This document shows, piece after piece, positions 7,076-32,985 of a stretch of DNA of 33,798 nt. The position numbers and the translations under genes are program-made. Origin of the DNA: Candidatus Nanoarchaeia archaeon (GTDB lineage: Archaea > Nanobdellota > Nanobdellia > SCGC-AAA011-G17 > GW2011-AR17); NCBI GenBank assembly GCA_028706745.1, contig JAQTVM010000017.1, forward strand, positions 1 through 33,798, in the 5' to 3' direction. The stretch's first letter is position 1. Every line of letters starts with the position of its first letter. Under the pieces are notes generated by a model that had not been told where the DNA came from, made no database searches, and worked only from the letters and a program-made list of their open reading frames with translations.

Positions 7076-8185
7076 TCATGAACATTTCAGAAGATTCAAG
7101 CACCTGTTTATTTCCTTATCTGACATTTCATTTGCAAACTTCTTGGCAATAGGAGCAAATAGCCCGCTCTTTAAGCTAAAGCAGTTTGCATTTTTTGTAT
7201 ACGCATTCCATCCTTCAAGAGAATTGTATACTTCATCGTAGCTTATTTCTCTTTTATCATAAAAAGAGCACAGCATTTCAAGCTTATTCCTGAATTTTCT
7301 TATGTTCTTCTTTTGTATAAGATTATGATGTGGGAACACTTTTAATCCAAGGAAATTAACTCCCCTGTAAAGCGGGAACACGCTTGACTTGTCGGGATGC
7401 AGGCTGATGCTCAAGACGTTTTCAAGGAAAATGCTTAGTTCTTTCTTATAATACTCAAGAATCTCCTTGGATTTATGCAGTATCACAAAGTCATCAACAT
7501 ACCTTATGTAATATTTTACTTTCAGATTTTGTTTTATAAAATAATCCAACTCATTAAGGTAAACATTCGCGAAAAACTGGCTCGTCAGGTTGCCGAGAGG
7601 CATGCCTTTTCCTCGCTGTTGAGGGCAATGGTTCTGCAATATAATTTTAATAAGCCACAGCACTTTTTCATCGGTTATTTTCCGGCTTATAATCTTCATT
7701 AATATTTCATGGCTGACAGAGTCAAAAAACTTCTTAATGTCTGCTTTTAAAACAAAACCCTTTATTCCATCTCCTGTCTTTAATGGCGTCAGATTCCTTG
7801 AAACCTTTCTCTTGAAATATTCAAAGCGACTTATTGCCTTCAAAACCCCTTTTCCCTTCCTGTTTGCGTAGCTGTCATAAATAAATGAATTCTCGAATAT
7901 AGGCTCAATTATGCTGCAGAGTGCATGGTGCACAACCCTGTCCCTGAATGCTGATTTGCTGATTTTCCTTGTTTTCGGCTCCCTTATGATAAATGCTTTT
8001 AGCGGCTCCGGGCGATAGCTGTAAAAGAGGAGGTCCGCCCTTAATTGGAGCAAATTGTTTGTTAAATCATTTTCAAACTCAACAACATACTTCTTTCTTG
8101 TTTTATGCTTTCTTGCTTTTTGATACGCCGAGAACAGGTTTTCATAGGAGCACAAATGAAAATACAAATTATTGTATGTTTTCAT
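7076..8185 (-). CDS. Diversity-generating retroelement reverse transcriptase
   Basis: This is the DGR reverse transcriptase, which copies the template RNA into adenine-mutagenised cDNA. The start MKTYNNLYFHLCSYENLFSAY is typical of DGR RTs, so I prefer the internal ATG at 8185 over the longer frame to 8224. Visible motifs are RDRVVHHALC (about residue 81), the first catalytic Asp in LKADIKKFFDSV (D149), GMPLGNLTSQFFANVYLNELD (about 194-214) and RYVDDFVIL (about 228-236). LGNLTSQ in place of the QGxxxSP of other RTs marks the DGR clade. The end has the NSLEGWNAYTKN thumb-like motif. At 369 aa it is of normal length and intact. It is the last gene of the minus-strand DGR cluster, 48 bp after the TR. 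Confidence 0.95.
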   Translation of the reverse strand: MKTYNNLYFHLCSYENLFSAYQKARKHKTRKKYVVEFENDLTNNLLQLRADLLFYSYRPEPLKAFIIREPKTRKISKSAFRDRVVHHALCSIIEPIFENSFIYDSYANRKGKGVLKAISRFEYFKRKVSRNLTPLKTGDGIKGFVLKADIKKFFDSVSHEILMKIISRKITDEKVLWLIKIILQNHCPQQRGKGMPLGNLTSQFFANVYLNELDYFIKQNLKVKYYIRYVDDFVILHKSKEILEYYKKELSIFLENVLSISLHPDKSSVFPLYRGVNFLGLKVFPHHNLIQKKNIRKFRNKLEMLCSFYDKREISYDEVYNSLEGWNAYTKNANCFSLKSGLFAPIAKKFANEMSDKEINRCLNLLKCS

Positions 8186-8233: not shown

Positions 8234-8321
8234 TATTCCACGAGCAGCGTTATTGTTGTTAAGGTTGTTATTGGCATTAAGGTTGAAGTTATTGTTGTTG
8301 CAACCGAGCCACGCAGCTCTT
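8234..8321 (-). repeat. DGR template repeat (TR), 88 bp
   Basis: This 88-bp block aligns without gaps to the ends of four target genes (VR1-VR4). In the coding frame it reads RAAWLGC, then NNNNFNLNANNNLNNNN, then AARG. The variable block is 8249-8299, with 13 AAC/AAT codons and fixed F, L, A and L codons between them. The flanking AAGAGCTGCG...GGTTGC is invariant in all copies. The end reads CGTGGAATA in the TR but CGTGGGGTA in all four VRs, as expected of IMH* versus IMH. It lies between the VR1 gene and the RT, so it should be present on any transcript that reaches the RT. Confidence 0.96.
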
Positions 8322-8517: not shown

Positions 8518-9438
8518 TTACGACGAACGTACCCCACGAGCAGCGTAATTGCTGAAAAGGTAGTTAAAGGCACCAAGGTCGAAGTAATCGTAGTCGCAAC
8601 CGAGCCACGCAGCTCTTGTCTCATTGCTGCTTGAAGTCCAAACATAAGCGGGCTTTCCAAAAAATTCCCCAATCTCAACAAGCACTTCGGGATTTCTCAA
8701 GCCTGTAAACTGCCTTACAAACCTTGCCATTTCAGGAATCCTCAATGCATCTCTCAATTTACAGTCTTTCAGCTTTTTCCTATCAAAAGAAAAAGCCTTT
8801 CTTTTGCCTGCATTCACATTGCTGTTTCCGCCGTTTGAAGTGAAATCAGAATCAGTTGGATAATGTATTACCTGTGCCGAACCCCAATTCACTAAAGTGT
8901 TCTGCGCATGCCAGCCGTATCCTTTACCCTTGTTTTTGTAATCATTTAATACCTTCATGCACTCAGGATTATTCTTATTATTCCACAACGCTTCAAGAAT
9001 ATTGCAGCTTAACGCAAACGAAGGCAATTCTATCCCCCTCTGCTCAAAATACACAATCCAATTGTAAGGAGTATTGTTTATCTGGCTGTTGTCACCATTC
9101 TTCTCAATATTCTTAGGCACATATATCCTGCCATGCCTTTCAAACTCATTGCCGTCTGCGTCAACGCAGCAGATGTTTTCAAGCGTTATGTATTCAGAAG
9201 CATCTGCAGCCGCAATAAGCGGCTTCCTCTCCCTATATTCTCTCATCTTCCCGAGCGCTTCCTGCAGTCTCGGACCATACGCGCGGTGCCTTGCAAGCAT
9301 CTGCATTGGAATAGTCCCTGCAGTGAGCATTGATTCAAGCGCAGAAATATTCTGAGGCTTGTCACTATCCAAAGCCTTCTCTGCTTCTTCCAGCGCTGCA
9401 ACGCAGCGCTTGTATTCTGTGATGAGTTCAGATGTCAT
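8518..9438 (-). CDS. DGR target protein 1 (carries VR1), 306 aa
   Basis: This is a diversified target protein. Residues 1-75 form a helical, coiled-coil-like stalk (ITEYKRCVAALEEAEKAL ... LQEALGKMREYRERKP). A middle domain shared with the other targets has VDADGNEFERHG, NWIVYFEQRG, FALSCNILEALW and GYGWHAQNTL. The C-terminal domain leads through NPEVLVEIGEFFGKPAYVW to the variable segment DYDYFDLGAFNYLFSNY after RAAWLGC, and ends AARGVRSS. This is the C-type-lectin-fold layout of DGR targets, though the fold is inferred. No signal peptide or membrane helix is present. The ATG overlaps the stop of the HEPN gene (ATGA), so it is translated with that pair. VR1 matches the TR at every non-adenine position of the block. 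Confidence 0.93.
   Translation of the reverse strand: MTSELITEYKRCVAALEEAEKALDSDKPQNISALESMLTAGTIPMQMLARHRAYGPRLQEALGKMREYRERKPLIAAADASEYITLENICCVDADGNEFERHGRIYVPKNIEKNGDNSQINNTPYNWIVYFEQRGIELPSFALSCNILEALWNNKNNPECMKVLNDYKNKGKGYGWHAQNTLVNWGSAQVIHYPTDSDFTSNGGNSNVNAGKRKAFSFDRKKLKDCKLRDALRIPEMARFVRQFTGLRNPEVLVEIGEFFGKPAYVWTSSSNETRAAWLGCDYDYFDLGAFNYLFSNYAARGVRSS
8530..8617 (-). repeat. Variable repeat VR1
   Basis: The 88-bp copy of the TR at the end of target gene 1. Fourteen of the 26 adenines in the Asn codons are changed (8 to T, 6 to G, none to C). There are no changes at other bases within the variable block, which is the cleanest match of the four. No GC-rich hairpin follows it. Confidence 0.95.
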
Positions 9439-9860
9439 TTTTCCAGCAGCCCCTTTAATAGCTCAATAATATGCTTAAATTCCAGCTTATTCATCTCAAT
9501 ATATGACTTATCCACAAATATTCCGTCATATGAAACCCTGTTCCTTACATCCTTCAATTTGAAGATTGTTTCAGCCTCATATTCATATTCAGGAAATCTG
9601 ACTTTGAAAAAGCGGATTAAGCATTCATGGTTGTCTGATTTCAACCCGTCTTTAAGCAAAAGAGCCGTAAGCAGCTCTTTAATAATTTCATAGTAATCCT
9701 CTGCTATAACTGAAGCGGTTTCCGCATCAAGAGCTATCTGCTCAACAACCTTCAATCTTACATTGCACATCTTCACGATGGAGCTTATCTTCTGTGTGTC
9801 AGGCTCAACTTTCTTTATATGCTCCTTCAAGCATTCATTCCACGGCATCAGCGGCTTCAT
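9435..9860 (-). CDS. HEPN-domain protein (HepT-like), 141 aa
   Basis: An all-helical protein of HEPN size. The conserved C-terminal motif reads KDVRNRVSYDGIFVD; in HepT toxins this place holds the RNase motif Rx4-6H followed by Tyr. Here Arg-Asn-Arg and Tyr remain but the His is absent, so RNase activity is uncertain. The gene starts inside the end of the upstream nucleotidyltransferase gene (4-bp overlap, 9860-9857), the standard arrangement of MntA-HepT-type pairs. It in turn overlaps the start of DGR target 1 by 4 bp (9438-9435). Being a roughly 140-aa helical bundle inside a DGR, it could be mistaken for Avd, but its sequence and partner are HEPN/MNT. Confidence 0.8.
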   Translation of the reverse strand: MKPLMPWNECLKEHIKKVEPDTQKISSIVKMCNVRLKVVEQIALDAETASVIAEDYYEIIKELLTALLLKDGLKSDNHECLIRFFKVRFPEYEYEAETIFKLKDVRNRVSYDGIFVDKSYIEMNKLEFKHIIELLKGLLEK

Positions 9861-10459
9861 TTTATCTTTAAGTACCCCTTTAGCTTTATCCCGTTTATTA
9901 TGTTATTTAGCAGTTCAGGCGATAATTTGCTTAAGTCTGGCTCAAAAAAGAGGTTAATGGGGTGCTTTAATTGCTTTTCAAACCTGCTTAAGCCCAATAC
10001 CTTTTCATTTGCCTGCACAAAAATGTCTATATCGCTGCTTAAATCATATTCCGCCTTTGCGAAAGAGCCAAAGAGCACTATGCATCTAGGGTTCAATTCC
10101 TGCTCCAAAAAGTCCAGAATGCCCGAATCAAGGATTGCCTTTAAAGCGCCGTGGCGCTTGTAAAGCTTATATTCTTCGCTTGAAGAATTTGCTATAAAAC
10201 TCGGGAAAACGCCCTGCTCTTTTTTGGCAATAAGCCCCGTTTTACACATCTTGCTGACATAGAAAGCCGCAGTGGATTTCGGAATCTTAAGCAATCTCGC
10301 TATTTCCCTTATATGATACTCCTTTTCCGGATTCTCCATGAAGAGAGATTCTATCTTATGTCCCATTTTGTTGTCCAATAGTCCAATATTTATGGACATA
10401 TTTAAATCTTGCGGTTTTGTTTTCCGCTTCCCTGATTTTCCGCCCGTTATTTTAGACAT
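9857..10459 (-). CDS. wHTH-nucleotidyltransferase (MntA-like), about 200 aa
   Basis: After a basic N-terminus comes a winged HTH (IESLFMENPEKEYHIREIARLLKIPKSTAAFYVSKMCKTGLI). A minimal nucleotidyltransferase domain follows, with CIVLFGSFAKAEYDLSSDIDIFVQ containing the GS and D-x-D catalytic motifs. In MntA/HepT pairs this enzyme adds AMP to the HEPN toxin and silences it; the wHTH probably binds DNA and may autoregulate. I chose the ATG at 10459 (MSKITGG); the longer open frame upstream lies inside the VR2 gene in another frame. The ATG overlaps the stop of target gene 2 by 8 bp (ATGTCTAA), so it is coupled to the DGR targets. Confidence 0.85.
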   Translation of the reverse strand: MSKITGGKSGKRKTKPQDLNMSINIGLLDNKMGHKIESLFMENPEKEYHIREIARLLKIPKSTAAFYVSKMCKTGLIAKKEQGVFPSFIANSSSEEYKLYKRHGALKAILDSGILDFLEQELNPRCIVLFGSFAKAEYDLSSDIDIFVQANEKVLGLSRFEKQLKHPINLFFEPDLSKLSPELLNNIINGIKLKGYLKIK

Positions 10460-11312
10460 TTTGTTTACCTTTATATTTTTTTCCGACTGCTCGCAGCCCC
10501 GGCTGCTCGCTACGTACCCCACGAGCCGCGTTACTGTAGCTAAGGTCGTAATAGGCATTGAGGTAGAAGTAATAGTAGCTGCAACCGAGCCACGCAGCTC
10601 TTGTGTCATTGCAATTTGAAGCATCTCCGTTCGGAACCCAAAGATGCGCTTCTTTGCCAAAATACTTGCCAAGCTCTACAATCAATTCAGGATTTGCCAT
10701 GCCTGTAAGCTGCTTTGCAAACCTTAATGCAACACTATCGTTCAATGCCTGCTCAAGAGGCATGCTTTTCAAGCCCTGCTTTGAAAATCCTAATGCAACC
10801 CTCCTGCCAGTATTGATATTACTATTTCCCCCATCACTCGGGAAATCAGAATCATAAGGATTATGCATTACCTCTTGCCCAGCATAACTAATCAGCGTAT
10901 TGGGCTTATGCCCGCCATTGCCATTCCCCTTGTCCTTGTACTGCATTAAAACTTTGTTCAATTCAGGCTCTTGCCTTTGCGCATATAAGGCAGCCGCTAT
11001 ATTGCAGTGAAGGGCAAAGCTCGGGTTGCGCATTGCTTTCTGCTCAAGATGCGCTGCGGCATCATAAGCAGTAAAATACAATATTTTCCCATCGGCATCC
11101 TTTTCTATATCCCGCCTTACATACAGATTAGGGTATTGCTCAAACACATTCCCGTCTGCATCTACACAGGCAATATTCTCCAAACAGATATAATCTGCCG
11201 TAATATCACCAATGCCTGAAACAGAAGTTATCACGGGCTTAATCGGCTCGGGCTCGTCAGTGATGCCCATCGCCTTCCGCATCCATTCAACTTCTTCAGG
11301 TGTGTATGCCAT
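10452..11312 (-). CDS. DGR target protein 2 (carries VR2), 286 aa
   Basis: A paralogue of the other targets with a shorter, different N-terminus (MAYTPEEVEWMRKAMGITDEPEP) in place of the 75-residue coiled-coil stalk. Shared segments are VDADGNVFEQYPNLYV, FALHCNIAAALY, GNGNGGHKPNTLISYAGQ, NPELIVELGKYFGKEAHLW and RAAWLGC. The variable segment is SYYYFYLNAYYDLSYSN, followed by AARGVR. Unlike targets 1, 3 and 4 it does not stop after the VR. A short deletion removes the usual stop and the frame runs through the downstream hairpin, adding a basic tail (SEQPGLRAVGKKYKGKQNV). No signal peptide is present. AGGAAA lies upstream of the ATG. Confidence 0.92.
   Translation of the reverse strand: MAYTPEEVEWMRKAMGITDEPEPIKPVITSVSGIGDITADYICLENIACVDADGNVFEQYPNLYVRRDIEKDADGKILYFTAYDAAAHLEQKAMRNPSFALHCNIAAALYAQRQEPELNKVLMQYKDKGNGNGGHKPNTLISYAGQEVMHNPYDSDFPSDGGNSNINTGRRVALGFSKQGLKSMPLEQALNDSVALRFAKQLTGMANPELIVELGKYFGKEAHLWVPNGDASNCNDTRAAWLGCSYYYFYLNAYYDLSYSNAARGVRSEQPGLRAVGKKYKGKQNV
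10493..10506 (-). repeat. Hairpin after VR2
   Basis: GCAGCC-CC-GGCTGC lies 8 bp beyond the VR2 end in coding sense. It is inside the open frame of target 2. It matches the hairpins after VR3 and VR4 and is placed like the DNA hairpin needed for homing in the Bordetella phage DGR. Confidence 0.6.
10515..10602 (-). repeat. Variable repeat VR2
   Basis: The 88-bp TR copy in target gene 2. Eleven of 26 Asn-codon adenines are changed (7 to T, 4 to G). Two synonymous non-adenine differences from the TR are seen: Leu CTT to CTC in the block, and Ala GCT to GCG just after it. Confidence 0.95.
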
Positions 11313-11399: not shown

Positions 11400-12320
11400 C
11401 TACGACGACGAACGTACCCCACGAGCCGCGCTACTGCTGCTAAGGTAGCTAATGGCAAAGAGGACCAAGTTATCGTTGCTGCAACCGAGCCACGCAGCTC
11501 TTGTATCATTACTGCCTGATGTCCATACATAAGCGGGCTTGCCAAAATGTTTTCCAATCTCAACAAGCACATCGGGATTTCTCAATCCCGTAAGCTGTTT
11601 TACAAATCTCTCCATGCCCGGATTTTTAAGCGCATCTTCAAGCGTGCAATCCTTAAAGCCCTGCCTGCTAAACTGCAATGGCATTCTTCCGCCATTGTTG
11701 ATATTATTATTCCCGCCGTTTGAAGTGAAATCAGCATCAGACGGATAATGTATTACCTGAGCGCTGCCCCAGTTTACCAAAGTGTTCTGGGCATGCCAGC
11801 CATAACCGTTACCCTTGTCCTTGTAATTCATCAATACCTGCATACATTCAGGATTATCCTTGTTCTTCCACAGCGCTTCAAGAATATTGCACGAAAGCGC
11901 AAAGCTTGGCAAAGACATTCCCCTCTGCTCAAAATATACAATCCAATTGTAAGGAGTATTGTTAATCGGGCTACCATCGCCATTCTTATCAATGCTTTTC
12001 GGCACATATACCTGCCCATGCCTTTCAAACTCATTGCCGTCAGCGTCTGTGCAGCAGATGTTTTCAAGCAAAAGGCAGTCAGAAACACCTGCAGCCGCAA
12101 CCAGCGGCTTCCTCTCCTTATATTCCTTTATCTTCCCGACAACTTCCTGCAGTCTGGGTCCATATGCATGGTGCCTCTGGAGCATTCTCATTGCAGAAGT
12201 CCCTGACGAGAGCATTGATTCAAGCACAGAAAGATTCTGAGGCTTATCACTATTCAAATCTTTCTCAGCTTCTTCCAGCGCTGCAACGCAGCGCTTGTAT
12301 TCTGTTATGATTTCAGTCAT
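11400..12320 (-). CDS. DGR target protein 3 (carries VR3), 306 aa
   Basis: Very close to target 1 along its whole length, with the same stalk (ITEYKRCVAALEEAEKDL), TDADGNEFERHGQVYV, NWIVYFEQRG, FALSCNILEALW, GYGWHAQNTLVNWGSAQV and NPDVLVEIGKHFGKPAYVW. The variable segment is SNDNLVLFAISYLSSSS after RAAWLGC, then AARGVRSSS and stop. The two genes are therefore a recent duplication or kept similar by conversion, apart from the diversified end. No signal peptide or membrane helix is present. An AAGGAAAA-type ribosome binding site precedes the ATG. Confidence 0.93.
   Translation of the reverse strand: MTEIITEYKRCVAALEEAEKDLNSDKPQNLSVLESMLSSGTSAMRMLQRHHAYGPRLQEVVGKIKEYKERKPLVAAAGVSDCLLLENICCTDADGNEFERHGQVYVPKSIDKNGDGSPINNTPYNWIVYFEQRGMSLPSFALSCNILEALWKNKDNPECMQVLMNYKDKGNGYGWHAQNTLVNWGSAQVIHYPSDADFTSNGGNNNINNGGRMPLQFSRQGFKDCTLEDALKNPGMERFVKQLTGLRNPDVLVEIGKHFGKPAYVWTSGSNDTRAAWLGCSNDNLVLFAISYLSSSSAARGVRSSS
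11415..11502 (-). repeat. Variable repeat VR3
   Basis: The 88-bp TR copy in target gene 3. Thirteen of 26 Asn-codon adenines are changed (8 to G, 5 to T). Three non-adenine differences are present: Phe TTC to Leu TTG, Leu CTT to CTC, and Ala GCT to GCG. The last two are shared with VR2. Confidence 0.95.
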
Positions 12321-12379: not shown

Positions 12380-13327
12380 CTACGACGAACGTACCCCACG
12401 AGCTGCGCTACTGAAGTTAAGGATGTTATAGGCACTAAGGTCGAAGTTATAGTCGTTGCAACCGAGCCACGCAGCTCTTGTATTTTTGCATTTTGCAATA
12501 TTGTCAGGGAACCAAACCCTTGCTTCTTTCCCAAAGTATTTTCCAATTTCAACAAGCACTTCGGGATTTCTCAAACCTGTAAACTGCCTGATAAAATATA
12601 ATGCTACCGCATGCTGCAATGCCTGCTCGAGAGTCTCATCTTTTAATGCCGATTTATTAGTAAAAGGCAAAACAATCCGCTTTCTGCCGCTATTAATGCC
12701 TGCAACGCCCCCATCATTGGGAAAATCGCTGTCAAACAGATAATGGATTATTTTCTCTCCTGCATAATCAACAACAGTGTTCTGGCAGTGCCAGCCGTTG
12801 CCATTGCCTTTATTCTTGTACATAAGCAAAATCCTTTCGCATTCAGGATTGTCTTTGTTCTGCCACAACGCATTAAGTATGTTACAGCTTAATGCAAATG
12901 AAGGCAGAAATAATCCGCCTGCCTGCTTTTCAAAATGAGCAGCACCATTGTAAGGCGTAAAGAACACTAATTCACCGTTTTGATTTTTCTCGAGATTTTT
13001 ATTCACGAACAATTCATCATACCTTTCAAACACATTTCCATCAACATCAGTGCAGCATACATCCTTCAATAAGAGATAATCGGATTTATCAGCAATTGAA
13101 ACCCCTGCAGGCTTCCTCTCCTTGTATTCCTTCATCTTCCCAACGACTTCCTGCAATCTGGGTCCATACGAATGGTGCCTCTGGAGCATTCTCATTGCAG
13201 GAGTCCCTGCCGAAAGCATTGATTCAAGAGCAGAAAGATTCTTCGGGCTATCAGTATTCAAAGCATTCTCAACTTCTTCCAGCGCGGCTACGCAGCGCTT
13301 GTATTCCGAGATGATTTCAGATGGCAT
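12380..13327 (-). CDS. DGR target protein 4 (carries VR4), 315 aa
   Basis: Shares the coiled-coil stalk of targets 1 and 3 (ISEYKRCVAALEEVENAL ... LQEVVGKMKEYKERKP). The middle and C-terminal domain are closer to target 2 in places (FFTPYNGAAHFEKQAG, GNGNGWHCQNTVVDYAGE, GGVAGINSGRKR, LEQALQHAVALYFIRQFTG, FGKEARVWFPDNIAKC). The variable segment is NDYNFDLSAYNILNFSS after RAAWLGC, ending AARGVRSS. It therefore looks like a mosaic of the two target subtypes. No signal peptide is present. Its ATG directly follows the stop of the coiled-coil gene 13328-14380, so the two are one operon. Confidence 0.92.
   Translation of the reverse strand: MPSEIISEYKRCVAALEEVENALNTDSPKNLSALESMLSAGTPAMRMLQRHHSYGPRLQEVVGKMKEYKERKPAGVSIADKSDYLLLKDVCCTDVDGNVFERYDELFVNKNLEKNQNGELVFFTPYNGAAHFEKQAGGLFLPSFALSCNILNALWQNKDNPECERILLMYKNKGNGNGWHCQNTVVDYAGEKIIHYLFDSDFPNDGGVAGINSGRKRIVLPFTNKSALKDETLEQALQHAVALYFIRQFTGLRNPEVLVEIGKYFGKEARVWFPDNIAKCKNTRAAWLGCNDYNFDLSAYNILNFSSAARGVRSS
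12392..12479 (-). repeat. Variable repeat VR4
   Basis: The 88-bp TR copy in target gene 4. Ten of 26 Asn-codon adenines are changed (5 to T, 5 to G). The only non-adenine difference is the third base of the Ala codon after the block (GCT to GCA). Confidence 0.95.
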
Positions 13328-14380
13328 TTATCTCTCCAATTTTTCTGTAAATTCAGCTTCAATTATAACAGGCTCTTCAACATAAGGCTTTGGAGATTCA
13401 GCTACTTTCCCAAGTACCATATCCATTCTTGCCTTCAAGTCCATTTTGGATTTTGAATCAGCAGCAAAAATCTCGGCATCAAGAGAGTCTTCAGCAGCCC
13501 TTTGTTCGCTTTCAACATCAAGATGAATCTGCGCTTCCTCGCGAAGCTGCCTTAATTCCTCAATCCTTGCCTTTCCCCTGGAAATAATCCCCTCAGGCAC
13601 TTCAGAGCTTCCTATGATATCAGCGTGCGTTTTTGCCTCTTCATATTCGCACTTCATCTCGTGCAATACATCCATTGCAGGCAGGAACTTTGCCTTTACC
13701 TTATCCTGGTCATACTGCTCTATTGCCTTCATCTGCCTTCTGGCTGAAAGCAATTCCCTTTCTGCAAAAGGATAGTCAATTTGAATCTTCCCTATTTTCT
13801 TCTCATTCTCATCAGATATTCCTGAAAAAAGCATCTGCCTTGTATCAGCATCATCAAAATCAATGTCAGCGCCTTCTGACAGCGCAGAACGAACTTCCTC
13901 CTGAGCCTTAGCATCAAGCTTATCATATTGCAAAAGCCTGCCAAGCACAGAGCCCTTCTGCTCAACAGAAGAAATATCCTGCCTGTATCCGCTAATCCGC
14001 GCAACCAGCGCCTGCTCCTTTTGTGAAAGCTCAGCATACTTTGCCCTAAGCCCTTCAACTGTTTCCGGAACGCCTGCAAACTCCTGCACGCTTCTAACAA
14101 TTTCCTCGTGGCTTTTCACAATGCTTTCAAGAAGCTCTGTCCTCAATGACGGCTTTGGCTTTGCCTTTCCAAAGAAAACTGCCAGCACTCCGTGCCTTTT
14201 CCTGCAGTCTGCCTTGTCTGTCTTCCTGCTTAAAGCCAATTGCCCTGAATAAGTCTTAAAATCCTCGGGCGGTATGGAAACCTTTTCAAGATACTGCCTT
14301 GCAACTGAAGAATCAGTAATCCTCGCTAGAGAGCCTTCTCCTGCTTTTATTATTGCTGTTGTGTATGCTGTTTCACTCAT
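13328..14380 (-). CDS. Coiled-coil protein heading the DGR operon, 350 aa
   Basis: I recognise no family. The product is almost wholly helical and highly charged, with long coiled-coil stretches around residues 85-145 (ELLESIVKSHEEIVRSVQEF, LRAKYAELSQKEQALVARI) and 200-310 (ERELLSARRQMKAIEQYDQ, IEELRQLREEAQIHLDVESEQR). There is no signal peptide or membrane helix. The stop abuts the ATG of DGR target 4. A minus-strand TATA box at 14431-14440 and GGGGGT before the ATG make this the first gene of the DGR transcript. Since three targets carry N-terminal coiled coils, it may be a scaffold or partner for them; that is inference from context only. Confidence 0.75.
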   Translation of the reverse strand: MSETAYTTAIIKAGEGSLARITDSSVARQYLEKVSIPPEDFKTYSGQLALSRKTDKADCRKRHGVLAVFFGKAKPKPSLRTELLESIVKSHEEIVRSVQEFAGVPETVEGLRAKYAELSQKEQALVARISGYRQDISSVEQKGSVLGRLLQYDKLDAKAQEEVRSALSEGADIDFDDADTRQMLFSGISDENEKKIGKIQIDYPFAERELLSARRQMKAIEQYDQDKVKAKFLPAMDVLHEMKCEYEEAKTHADIIGSSEVPEGIISRGKARIEELRQLREEAQIHLDVESEQRAAEDSLDAEIFAADSKSKMDLKARMDMVLGKVAESPKPYVEEPVIIEAEFTEKLER

Positions 14381-14508: not shown

Positions 14509-15807
14509 ATGGAAACAGGCAAATTAATGCGCTACTTTGCGGACAAGAAGGAAATAATACGCGGGCTGAAAGTCCTTCCAAGGGAAGCTGATATAAGGCT
14601 GACAAAGGATTTCATATCCTGTATTATAGGCCCGAGGCGCTCAGGAAAAAGCTACTGTATGTACGATTTAGTGCTGAATAAGCTTAAGCTGAAAGACGAG
14701 GATTTTCTTTATATTAATTTTGAAGATGCGGAAATGTCAGGCGCCTCGTTCAGCGAAATATTAATAGCTGTAAACAGCCATGAGGAAAAATACGGGAAAA
14801 AGCCGTTATACTTGTTTTTGGACGAAGTGCAGGTTGTTGAAGGCTGGCACAAGGCGCTGAACAGCCTGTACGAAAGCAAGAGGCATTTCATTGTTGTGTC
14901 AGGATCTTCATCAAAACTTCTGTCAAAGGAAATAGCAACCTCGCTGAGGGGAAGGGCATTAAGCTATACCCTGCTTCCTTTGTCATTCAGGGAATATATG
15001 AAATTTGGCGGAGTTTCATTGGATATTAAAACCAGCTCTGAAGAAAACATGGCAAAAAATATTTTGAGAGAATACCTTAAGCACGGAGGCTTCCCGGCAG
15101 TCGCGCTTAATAAGGAAATTGCAGAACAGTTTTTCAGGGAATACATGGATCTCGTGGTATTCAGGGATGTTATTGAAAGAAAGAAAATAAAAAATATATT
15201 TGTAATAAAAGCAATTGTCAGGCTTCTGATGTCATCTTTTTCAAAAGAATCATCCATCCACAGGATGTTTGACACATTGAAATCTCAGGGCATTAAGATA
15301 AGCAAAAAAACAGTTTATAACTATGCATCATACCTTGAAGATGCATTTTTTGCATTCTTCCTGAGAAAATTTGATTATTCAATAAAAAATGAGATTCTTT
15401 CAATGCCAAAATGTTATATATGCGATAACGGGCTTGTAACTTCTGCCGAGGGATCTGCTGAAAACTTCGGAAGGCTTGCCGAGAATGCTGTTTTTCTTGA
15501 GCTAAAAAGGAGGCAAAACAATACAGCCGAAGAAATAGCCTATTATAAGCTATCAGCAGGAAATGAGGTGGATTTCGCAATAAAAAAAGGAAAAACGGCA
15601 ATAAAGCTTATTCAGGTGACTGCTGTTTCAAACCTTGAAGATATAAACAAGAGGGAATTGAAAGCTCTCCTTGAAGCGTCAGGCAGCCTCAAATGCAGCA
15701 GCCTGCTTGTTATTACATGGGATTATGAAGACAAGAAGATGATTGAATCAAAAGAAATAAATTTTGTGCCTCTTTGGAAATGGCTTCTTGAAAGCCCCGG
15801 CTTCTGA
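14509..15807 (+). CDS. AAA ATPase with DUF4143 domain
   Basis: A 432-aa member of the large archaeal/bacterial ATP-binding DUF4143 group. Walker A is GPRRSGKS (41-48) and Walker B YLFLDE (101-106), followed by the sensor-like VVSGSSSKLL and the family phrase LRGRALSYTLLPLSFREYM. The C-terminal half holds the DUF4143 nuclease-like region with ENAVFLELKRR and NEVDFAIKKGKTAIKLIQVT, which has the E...E-V-D...Q pattern of PD-(D/E)xK folds. The role of this family is poorly known. The ATG is 21 bp after the TATA box, so the mRNA is leaderless. It is divergent from the DGR operon. Confidence 0.88.
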   Translation: METGKLMRYFADKKEIIRGLKVLPREADIRLTKDFISCIIGPRRSGKSYCMYDLVLNKLKLKDEDFLYINFEDAEMSGASFSEILIAVNSHEEKYGKKPLYLFLDEVQVVEGWHKALNSLYESKRHFIVVSGSSSKLLSKEIATSLRGRALSYTLLPLSFREYMKFGGVSLDIKTSSEENMAKNILREYLKHGGFPAVALNKEIAEQFFREYMDLVVFRDVIERKKIKNIFVIKAIVRLLMSSFSKESSIHRMFDTLKSQGIKISKKTVYNYASYLEDAFFAFFLRKFDYSIKNEILSMPKCYICDNGLVTSAEGSAENFGRLAENAVFLELKRRQNNTAEEIAYYKLSAGNEVDFAIKKGKTAIKLIQVTAVSNLEDINKRELKALLEASGSLKCSSLLVITWDYEDKKMIESKEINFVPLWKWLLESPGF

Positions 15808-23617: not shown

Positions 23618-24130
23618 TCATTTCAGCACAACGGCTTTCGTGTCATTCAGGCATTCCTTGCACAATGCTATGCTCTTTTCAATATCCTTTTTATTGCCGA
23701 CAGAAATACTTGTGCCATATGTATATTCTTCCCTATCTTCTATTATGCTCGTTTCATGCCTGCCTGTTTCATTAAACAAGCCAAGCGCAGCAATAAACTT
23801 CTCATCAAACTCTATTTTGCCTTCCTGCTTCAAATACTTGATAAGGGCAATTGTGCATTCCTGGTTTTTGGAGTCATAGCCAAATTTTGCAGCAATTGCA
23901 AGAAAGCAGTGATAAATGCAGTAAAAGGCTGCGCTCATGCTCCAGTCAGAAAAACCGCCATCGCTAAAATAAGATATTGCCAGCAGGTTATGCTCTGCTT
24001 TTTTTAAGTGCCTTTTTGCTTCTTCCATATCAGGCTCTGCTATTACAAGCCCCCTGTGCTTCCCTTTTTCCTTGATTTCCTTTTCAGCCTTTTTCAGGCA
24101 CCATTCCATCTTGTTCCCGGCGTGGCTCAC
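23618..24130 (-). CDS. HEPN-domain protein, 170 aa
   Basis: A helical HEPN protein: EEAKRHLKKAEHNLLAISYF, DWSMSAAFYCIYHCFLAIAAKFGY and NQECTIALIKYL follow the archaeal HEPN pattern. The C-terminal motif is EDREEYTYGTS in place of Rx4-6H, as in the HEPN subgroup thought not to have the classic RNase site. The start GTG at 24130 overlaps the stop of the nucleotidyltransferase gene (GTGA), but an ATG at 24109 (MEWCLKKAEKE) resembles the start of relatives better. It forms an MNT/HEPN pair with the gene at 24127. Confidence 0.8.
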   Translation of the reverse strand: MSHAGNKMEWCLKKAEKEIKEKGKHRGLVIAEPDMEEAKRHLKKAEHNLLAISYFSDGGFSDWSMSAAFYCIYHCFLAIAAKFGYDSKNQECTIALIKYLKQEGKIEFDEKFIAALGLFNETGRHETSIIEDREEYTYGTSISVGNKKDIEKSIALCKECLNDTKAVVLK

Positions 24131-24699
24131 CTTACCGCCTCCATGTAATTTTCATAGCCATAAAGCACAACGCCGGACTTTATAATGCTTGCCATAGCCT
24201 TGTTCCGCAATTTGGCATCTTTCTGAAAATCCTGCATACTCTGGAGCAGGAGATGTATCTTTTTGCTTGATACCTTGTTTCGCATTTCTATTATATCTTG
24301 TATTTGCTTAAAATTCCTGCTTTTCGCAACAACAAGCAAATCAATGTCGTTTGCCTCTTTTTCGTTAACGAGGATTGAGCCGAACAGGATGACAAACAGG
24401 GAAATGACCTTAATCTCCTTAAATTCCTCCAGCCACCTCTTATAATTCAATGACTCCATTGCAAGCGCCAGCTCTATCATCTTGCCTGCCGCAGGGTTGC
24501 CAAAATCAAAAGAATAAACAACAGCATTTCCTATCCTCCTGCCGTTCATAATTCCCAAACCGGACAGCTTTCTCATTATCTTGAATGCGCCCGCATGGCT
24601 GATGCCAATTGCTTTCCCTATGCTCCTGCTGTTATGCTGCGCTGAAATGTCCTTAAACAGCAGAAGCACGGCTTCCTGTTCTTTTGAAAGGTGTTTCAT
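24127..24699 (-). CDS. HTH-nucleotidyltransferase (MNT) protein
   Basis: An N-terminal HTH (LSKEQEAVLLLFKDISAQHNSRSIGKAIGISHAGAFKIMRKLSGLGI) joins a minimal nucleotidyltransferase with FVILFGSILVNEKEANDIDLLVVAKS (GS ... D-x-D). It is the likely partner and antitoxin-type modifier of the HEPN protein encoded next. The ATG at 24699 is chosen; a GTG two codons earlier (24705) is possible. The promoter region holds two direct repeats that the HTH may bind, which would make the pair self-regulated. It is the same gene pair type as the one embedded in the DGR, though not closely similar in sequence. Confidence 0.83.
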   Translation of the reverse strand: MKHLSKEQEAVLLLFKDISAQHNSRSIGKAIGISHAGAFKIMRKLSGLGIMNGRRIGNAVVYSFDFGNPAAGKMIELALAMESLNYKRWLEEFKEIKVISLFVILFGSILVNEKEANDIDLLVVAKSRNFKQIQDIIEMRNKVSSKKIHLLLQSMQDFQKDAKLRNKAMASIIKSGVVLYGYENYMEAVR

Positions 24700-24700
24700 A

Positions 24701-24738
24701 TTCACTTTTAGTTAATATATGTTTACTTTTAGTTAATA
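24701..24738 (-). promoter_or_regulatory. Direct-repeat operator before the MNT/HEPN pair
   Basis: TTCACTTTTAGTTAATA (24701-24717) and TTTACTTTTAGTTAATA (24722-24738) are near-identical 17-bp direct repeats with a 21-bp period, two helical turns. They lie between the minus-strand TATA-like TTATATACC (about 24742-24750) and the start codon, as expected of an autorepression site. Confidence 0.6.
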
Positions 24739-32088: not shown

Positions 32089-32985
32089 ATGGGCGAACGC
32101 CTGAGACGATTAAAAAAGGGTGCAATTGCTTCTCTTGCAGCAATTGCTATGTCTTCCGGCATTGGCTTTGCAGTTCCTTCTGATTACAACAAGACAGCTG
32201 AAGAGGCAAGACAGGCTTATGTTTACGAGCATCAGGACATTGACGGATTGTATGACTATGACTCAGAATGCATTCCAAATCTGGAAAATATTCTCAATGA
32301 AATAAAGGAAAGCACTTATGAAATAAACAACTTTGTGTTTTATACTGTGGAAGGCGGAATATACGCGGGCTCAAACATGCGGATAGCCGGGGGCTCGGGA
32401 ATTCTGCTTGACAGCGGATACATAATATCCGCAGGGCACGTAATAAAAAATGACCTTGAAGACATGGTAAGAAGCACAGGAGGAATAATCACTGATTATA
32501 AGTCTTCTTTTTTTCTTGCAGAAGAAGGCAAGTATCATGCTCTTGAGGCTGTATGGACAGGAAGCGATGAAGATGACTTCACAATACTCGGGATGGAAAA
32601 TCCCGAACCGAGCCTGCATTCGGCTTCAATAAGATTCGGAAGCGCTGAATACCTTGCAAACGGAAGCATAACATACACTTTCAGCGCAATGAACGAACCG
32701 TGGATAAAAGAAGGGCACGTGTTCAATGCAGAAAGGGGAATATGGAACCGCGATGCAAGGGACTATGGCTATTTCCTTGAAGACACTTACGTTACCCACG
32801 GCGATTCCGGAGGTCCTGTGATTGCATTCAGGGACGGAACTCCCGAACTGATAGGAATAACCTGCTATTACGCGCACACCAGATGCGGGCAAATGCTCGT
32901 AAGGGAAAGCGGAATACTCAAGATAGACGTGATACTTGAGCATGCAGGGGATATCTTAATGCCAAGCACAATATCCGCTTATTGA
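32089..32985 (+). CDS. Secreted trypsin-like serine protease, 298 aa
   Basis: A signal peptide (charged MGERLRRLKK, hydrophobic core, end near GFAVPS) precedes an S1-type protease domain. The catalytic His is in GYIISAGHVI (H117), Asp in DEDDFTIL (D163) and Ser in THGDSGGPVIAF (S240). An acidic N-terminal segment (HQDIDGLYDYDSECIPNLENIL) may be a propeptide. It should act at the cell surface or outside. The next gene encodes a relative with the same layout, so this is a tandem pair from duplication. Confidence 0.9.
   Translation: MGERLRRLKKGAIASLAAIAMSSGIGFAVPSDYNKTAEEARQAYVYEHQDIDGLYDYDSECIPNLENILNEIKESTYEINNFVFYTVEGGIYAGSNMRIAGGSGILLDSGYIISAGHVIKNDLEDMVRSTGGIITDYKSSFFLAEEGKYHALEAVWTGSDEDDFTILGMENPEPSLHSASIRFGSAEYLANGSITYTFSAMNEPWIKEGHVFNAERGIWNRDARDYGYFLEDTYVTHGDSGGPVIAFRDGTPELIGITCYYAHTRCGQMLVRESGILKIDVILEHAGDILMPSTISAY

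Follow-up and report, generated by a model that had tools for sequence, protein, structure and literature searches.

Among the closest described relatives of the gene pair reported here are the HepT-MntA systems (type VII), in which the antitoxin adenylylates the toxin according to the covered sections of PMC7641770; what is said below on toxicity and neutralisation takes these systems as its basis (PMC7641770 and PMC11586414, both in part). Another is PDC-M05, a candidate system of PADLOC, which has a wHTH-nucleotidyltransferase gene A directly upstream of a HEPN gene B, the two overlapping. Passages of PMC4372165 describe DGRs of DPANN archaea (Nanoarchaeota and Woesearchaeota) with the TR just upstream of the RT, the VR at the 3′ end of the target and several DGRs per genome. 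For multicellular bacteria, diversified DGR targets adjoining conflict-type genes are described in parts of PMC10907252, the partners being STAND NTPases or MoxR/vWA ternary systems, and DPANN clade 5F DGRs are stated there to lack ternary or conflict links. The Pfam families near 32,321 DGR sequences have been surveyed in PMC10053308 (covered in part).

Our MNT-HEPN pair resembles PDC-M05 in gene order, in the overlap and in the match of gene A to PDC-M05A, but its gene B is weak on PDC-M05B (E 0.033) and the pair is embedded between DGR targets. With HepT-MntA it has in common the MNT gene upstream of the HEPN gene, the NTase active-site residues and the HEPN fold; it differs by a wHTH fused to the MNT and by Rx4Y in place of Rx4H in the HEPN, with a Gly two positions later, at the place of the modified Tyr of HepT. 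The DGR is like those of the covered part of PMC4372165 in RT type, in the positions of TR and VR and in there being several DGRs in the genome; it is unlike them in that a single TR serves four targets and that a toxin-antitoxin-type module separates two of the targets. Adjacency of diversified targets to conflict-type genes is shared with the systems in the covered parts of PMC10907252, whereas the partner here is an apparently self-regulated MNT-HEPN pair. The pair is of a known kind, and its DGR setting and recurrence look new within the literature covered (titles, beginnings of abstracts and passages, PMC10053308 in part), where no report of toxin-antitoxin modules inside archaeal DGRs was found.

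Architecture of the DGR locus

The window, i.e. the whole stretch of DNA analysed, is an entire contig of 33.8 kb (G000:C15) from a genome of 1.24 Mb in 32 contigs. On the minus strand the order is 350-aa gene, targets 4, 3 and 2, MNT, HEPN, target 1, TR and RT, with the following features:

7076..8185, minus strand: DGR reverse transcriptase (RT), RVT_1 match at E 4e-22
8234..8321, minus strand: template repeat (TR), from TR/VR comparison
8518..9438, minus strand: DGR target 1, VR at 8530-8617, overlapping the HEPN stop (ATGA)
9435..9860, minus strand: HEPN gene, predicted toxin of 141 aa, family residues Y57, H78, R106, N107, Y111 and G113 kept
9857..10366, minus strand: MNT gene (wHTH and minimal nucleotidyltransferase), predicted antitoxin of 169 aa when counted from the ATG conserved in the family
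10356..10410, minus strand: putative conserved promoter, operator and start of the module, from comparison of upstream regions and nhmmer
10452..11312, minus strand: DGR target 2, VR at 10515-10602, C-terminus 17 residues beyond that of target 1, into the linker
10457..10519, minus strand: inter-target linker (hairpin, leader and ATG 10459), upstream of the inserted module
11400..12320, minus strand: DGR target 3, VR at 11415-11502
12380..13327, minus strand: DGR target 4, VR at 12392-12479
13328..14380, minus strand: 350-aa gene upstream of target 4 with zero gap

Each of the four VRs differs from the TR at 12-16 template A positions and at 0-3 others (A/other 12/1, 16/0, 13/2 and 15/3 for the four targets). 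Since the mismatches are almost wholly confined to template A, the DGR, with its RT, TR and four targets, is genuine, and target 1, which lies behind the pair, is diversified too. The location of an MNT-HEPN pair within a DGR, as proposed in an earlier note on this DNA, was therefore confirmed: the two genes have kept their family residues and are flanked by targets 2 and 1 of a genuine DGR with four targets. The RT shares 72% identity with the RT of a DGR from a second genome of the genus, and the contig of the sister DGR of the genus (G003:C23, L111) stops at the target start. A Pfam search of the 350-aa gene gave no family above the cut-off. Target 1 was modelled poorly by AF2 (pLDDT 57.6), and this model was left unused.

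Target 2 has no stop directly after its VR, unlike targets 1, 3 and 4, and reads through the hairpin (10452-10500, minus strand). Divergent from the DGR operon, the window carries an AAA_14/DUF4143 ATPase gene at 14509-15807 on the plus strand (PADLOC PDC-S01, 2.7e-104). The same genome contains a second DGR (L150, G000:C24:36267-37295) with its own TR/VR (12 A and 0 other mismatches), and two MNT-type genes are found about 4.5 and 8 kb away from it.

The MNT and HEPN genes

The MNT protein matched Pfam families Polbeta (E 1.1e-8) and NTP_transf_2 (2.4e-6), and PADLOC PDC-M05A at 5.3e-14 in its 200-aa form and 8.7e-14 in its 169-aa form; on the NCBIfam MntA model it scored 28.2 bits, under the cut-off of 60. 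The GSx10DxD motif is intact, its residues being kept in 68 family rows as G131 (100%), S132 (98%), D143 (100%) and D145 (98%). The open frame reaches ATG 10459 (9857-10459, 200 aa) and then continues upstream without an ATG; alignments of homologues to it mostly start at about residue 20-40. From the ORF coordinates, the HEPN gene overlaps the MNT gene by 4 bp and target 1 overlaps the HEPN gene by 4 bp, just as noted earlier.

In the HEPN protein, H78, R106, N107, Y111 and G113, invariant across the 53 family rows, are all present. Because its match to Pfam HEPN is sub-threshold (E 0.05), its identity rests on the fold. The AF2 model (pLDDT 94.7) had as its top structural match the archaeal HEPN protein 2hsb (Z 13.9, rmsd 2.3 over 119 residues), and the HepT chains 6m6u_H and 7bxo_F matched at Z about 12; Foldseek alone gave nothing at E < 0.001. 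With PDC-M05B the window HEPN gave nothing at the 0.01 cut-off, and its homologue in L208 reached 1.3e-4.

The motif of HepT is RX4HXY, its Tyr being the modified residue, and the PDB titles of HepT name the mutants H107A-Y109F and Y104A. The canonical Rx4-6H is absent from our HEPN: the window and every one of the 53 family rows have Rx4Y, and the invariant His is located elsewhere. In HEPN-T, according to the covered part of PMC3710099, Asp can substitute for the His and a conserved His stands elsewhere. RNase activity of the window HEPN is plausible from its residues, and uncertain as the Rx4-6H position has no His; for want of this motif the pair was not classified as HepT-MntA and is only taken to work in a similar way. 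The closest HEPN homologues (63-64%) are in the genomes G071 and G096, where a DGR-type RT was not found at E 1e-20, which indicates that the module travels without DGRs.

Putative promoter, start codon and proposed insertion of the module

Upstream of the MNT homologues there is a shared pattern: a TATA-like box rich in A+T, paired inverted repeats and, within the repeat, the start codon. A promoter/start model built from 11 homologue regions, none of them from the window, was searched against the 33.8-kb window with nhmmer; the best match, a modest one, was 10410-10356 (E 0.014), with the runner-up at 1.6. It includes a TATA-like TTTAAATA at 10406-10399 (minus strand) and inverted-repeat arms ATGTCC (10399-10394) and GGACAT (10363-10358) on either side of the start codon, and it sets the conserved start at ATG 10366, 85 bp past the stop codon of target 2. 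TTTAWA was found at -26 to -60 before 30 of 45 family members and before 415 of 1099 (38%) other ORFs; the box being so common before control ORFs, it says little alone, and the weight is carried by the whole element. By eye, 10 of the 11 MNT genes beside RTs have TATA-like boxes of their own. The first 31 codons of the 200-aa MNT ORF would thus be promoter and operator, not conserved protein.

The linker before ATG 10459 aligns to the linker between targets 4 and 3 with a score of 78 (maximum of 200 shuffles, 26), so this upstream ATG seems to derive from an inter-target leader. The 85-bp stretch preceding target 1 showed no likeness to the linker (score 15, shuffles up to 22). Read in the simplest way, these sequences point to an insertion of the module that separated a target leader from the body of target 1; the leader would thereby have been left with the MNT gene, and the ATG of target 1 would have come to lie on the HEPN stop.

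An 8-bp overlap of the MNT gene with target 2 had been described before; this holds for the ORF from ATG 10459, but not for the conserved start, which lies beyond the stop of target 2. The further claim that the tight packing implies joint expression with the diversified proteins stands in part. On the 3′ side the HEPN gene and target 1 do overlap, and this coupling is real and may be functional; on the 5′ side the pair carries a family promoter, operator-like repeats and a start, hence joint expression does not follow from packing there. ATG 10459, with its target-type leader, may still be in use, and when the MNT is read from the DGR transcript the 5′ coupling may survive in the form of 31 additional N-terminal residues. 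Tight packing alone does not show that the HEPN works with diversified receptors or stands in for Avd.

We consider, at a probability of about 0.6, that the MNT-HEPN pair is an autonomous, addiction-type module of the toxin-antitoxin type and the PDC-M05 kind, and that it entered this archaeal DGR of four targets where target 1 begins. The module would have retained the promoter/operator-like element and start of its family, with the leader stranded upstream and target 1 starting on the HEPN stop. The wHTH-MNT protein would repress its own promoter and neutralise the HEPN RNase, with nucleotidylation, known from HepT-MntA, as the probable means. When the locus is lost, the longer-lived toxin would be freed, and the module would so favour the retention of the surrounding DNA, the DGR included. 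The module promoter may now also drive transcription of target 1 and possibly of TR-RT. By analogy with HepT-MntA we infer that the HEPN is toxic, that the MNT neutralises it by nucleotidylation and that the module stabilises the DGR; the pair may stabilise the locus, and an addiction module, one of the roles suggested before, is compatible with everything seen.

Avd and the related cassettes

No Avd gene is present in the cassette, as had been observed earlier. In 25 DGR-bearing genomes (of the 41 with an RT match), bAvd PF22296 gave no match over the cut-off, and PF05635, a family said to resemble Avd in the covered part of PMC10053308, gave none on any RT contig; the one PF05635 protein that this genome encodes lies on a different contig (C29).

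The HEPN helical bundle had been suggested as a replacement of Avd as partner of the RT, in view of its similar size, its helical fold and the Avd-less cassette. However, the VR-RT gap in related cassettes has a median of 432 nt including the TR (35 measured), leaving no room for Avd, and only 9 of 75 confirmed loci with a measured gap exceed 800 bp. Most relatives with A-directed TR/VR variation are also without a HEPN alongside. Since the related cassettes vary at A with neither protein detected beside them, the Avd families having been searched in 25 of the 41 genomes, and given too that the top structural matches of the HEPN are HEPN toxins and that the nearest homologues of the pair are in genomes where no DGR RT was detected, we rejected this proposal as highly improbable.

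In one confirmed archaeal DGR (L212), a PF05635 protein is encoded 450 bp behind the RT on the opposite strand (7351-7755), so it would be wrong to say that no relative has an Avd-like neighbour.

MNT genes at related DGRs

This genome holds 27 NTP_transf_2 domains in its 1.24 Mb, with 16 matches to the window MNT, and the chance of at least one NTP_transf_2 gene in a locus of such size is P about 0.14. A single case in one genome therefore proves nothing, and other DGRs were compared. The same figure speaks for the pair being a pure bystander, landed by chance or genome plasticity in an intergenic space that tolerates insertions, with no benefit to the DGR.

At E 1e-20 an RT match was found in 41 of 99 genomes, the source genome included. 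The set comprised 67 RT loci including the window and the best 80 of 418 named loci, less 15 duplicates, i.e. 131 loci besides the window, 76 of them with confirmed TR/VR; the named relatives are mostly Woesearchaeota or Nanoarchaeota. In confirmed loci, the gene next after the RT (no more than 700 bp away) was an MNT in 7 of 68 cases, against 7 of 633 genes more than 3 kb away (P 1.2e-4), and all seven are on the RT strand. For all loci the figures were 8 of 115 and 9 of 948 (P 1.6e-4), or 7 of 115 and 8 of 948 with a stricter motif that misses the NTases of L152 and L195. Near the RT, 12 MNTs were counted in 88.0 kb, whereas the regions beyond 3 kb held 18 in 947.5 kb (P 2.8e-6); two of the twelve (L244 and L259) have no NTase motif. 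All these statistics are on phylogenetically non-independent loci, several of which come from one genome. The MNT model was seeded with the window pair and homologues picked regardless of DGRs, while the RelE, PIN and PemK models were seeded from proteins near DGRs, which leaves the MNT test as the only one without such bias.

Against a whole-genome background, five MNTs were observed within 500 bp of an RT where 1.33 were expected (P 0.012), and seven within 2 kb where 3.38 were expected (P 0.057); at 1, 3 and 5 kb P was 0.061, 0.095 and 0.043, in each case among the matches listed. This background consists of the PF01909 matches listed, with matches of the local model added by hand (including G021:C26 and G085:C222). 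In a Pfam comparison of 150 of 162 near ORFs (224 before target-like and long ones were dropped) with 150 of 306 far ORFs, Polbeta was found in 7 near and 2 far, and PIN in 2 each. ParE was found in 4 near ORFs and is absent among the 25 families listed for the far ones; AbiEii, found in 2 far ORFs, is not among the families listed near.

Across related DGRs the MNTs thus cluster beyond chance, though with weaker support on the whole-genome background. This last result agrees with the bystander explanation, but two findings argue against it: MNTs are enriched as first gene after the RT, each of the seven in confirmed loci being on the RT strand, and they are denser near RTs (12 in 88 kb, two of them without NTase motif) than far away (18 in 947 kb). 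We regard it as the lesser possibility, though a serious one. Pairwise identity of the first-after-RT MNTs is no more than 25-45% (over alignments longer than 90 residues, L152 left out), which indicates separate acquisitions.

Exchangeable toxins in the VR-RT interval

Four other confirmed DGRs contain a toxin-type gene between the VR and the RT:

L194, VR-RT interval: ParE, opposite strand
L158, VR-RT interval: PemK
L141, VR-RT interval: RelE-like toxin, weak Pfam match (YafQ, E 0.015)
L195, between VR and TR: MNT-HEPN of a different lineage

L195 is the most telling of these, as its RT is 64% identical to the window RT and its target is homologous to those of the window. With this pair, and with the MNTs placed first after the RT, related DGR loci do have MNT or MNT-HEPN genes; absence of the pair from all of them would, by the earlier note, have shown a chance insertion. 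L165 has a ParE upstream of its RT, its TR/VR being unconfirmed. The VR-RT interval also hosts an rve-type transposase (L200) and a Bro-N gene (L193, identified via a close homologue in L192). The place therefore tolerates mobile genes generally, which again suits a bystander, and the type of toxin is exchangeable.

Another proposed role was that of an immune effector, the diversified proteins sensing invaders and releasing or activating the HEPN RNase. This would suit the overlap of HEPN and target 1, the status of PDC-M05 as a candidate defence system in PADLOC and the link of DGR targets to conflict systems in multicellular bacteria (PMC10907252, covered in part), but none of it is specific to such a role. 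The module has its own promoter, the HEPN and MNT proteins are not fused to targets, and related cassettes have unrelated toxins, with ParE or PemK in a comparable position, or none. The immune role is unlikely.

Exchangeable toxins with promoters of their own speak against a role in diversification or receptor signalling that is specific to the HEPN. They speak for what toxin-antitoxin modules have in common, namely regulating themselves and securing the retention of the surrounding DNA. Under the preferred reading of an inserted addiction-type module, the modules at DGRs are probably self-preserving passengers, not parts of the mutation machine. A broader proposal, which we advance tentatively and hold to be doubtful, is that non-homologous toxin-antitoxin modules are recurrent, selected parts of DGR loci in Woesearchaeota and Nanoarchaeota; they would be interchangeable addiction devices, recruited repeatedly inside the cassette or directly behind the RT on the RT strand, that keep a costly mutator in small, fast-shrinking genomes, and here one would have taken over the expression of target 1. 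If true, such repeated recruitment would explain how several mutator cassettes are maintained in archaea with tiny genomes, and would connect DGRs with toxin-antitoxin modules, two classes of elements so far treated separately.

Other observations

A virus origin of the pair was considered and, on searches of viral contigs and viral DGR loci, rejected. With the HEPN profile, 77 pattern matches in viral contigs included 0 confirmed relatives, and 87 viral DGR loci gave no match to the MNT, HEPN, RelE, PemK and PIN models, although these had been trained on archaeal sequences.

A second MNT-HEPN pair, from another lineage, is located 14 kb from the DGR in the window (23618-24130 and 24127-24705, minus strand), with matches to Pfam HEPN (7.1e-8) and PDC-M05A (1.1e-10). 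By eye, its HEPN resembles those of L195 (inside the DGR) and L152 (behind the RT). In G001 and G003, of the same genus, 60 and 52 NTP_transf_2 domains were counted in 1.5-1.6 Mb, compared with 27 here.

Genes for AAA_5 (MoxR-like ATPase) precede Woesearchaeota-type DGR targets in L142, L152, L158 and L114, and VWA genes do so in L194, L195 and L152. With matches to bpMoxR of ternary systems in L152 (2.7e-4) and to VWA_4 in L194 (4.7e-7), these neighbours are reminiscent of ternary conflict systems.
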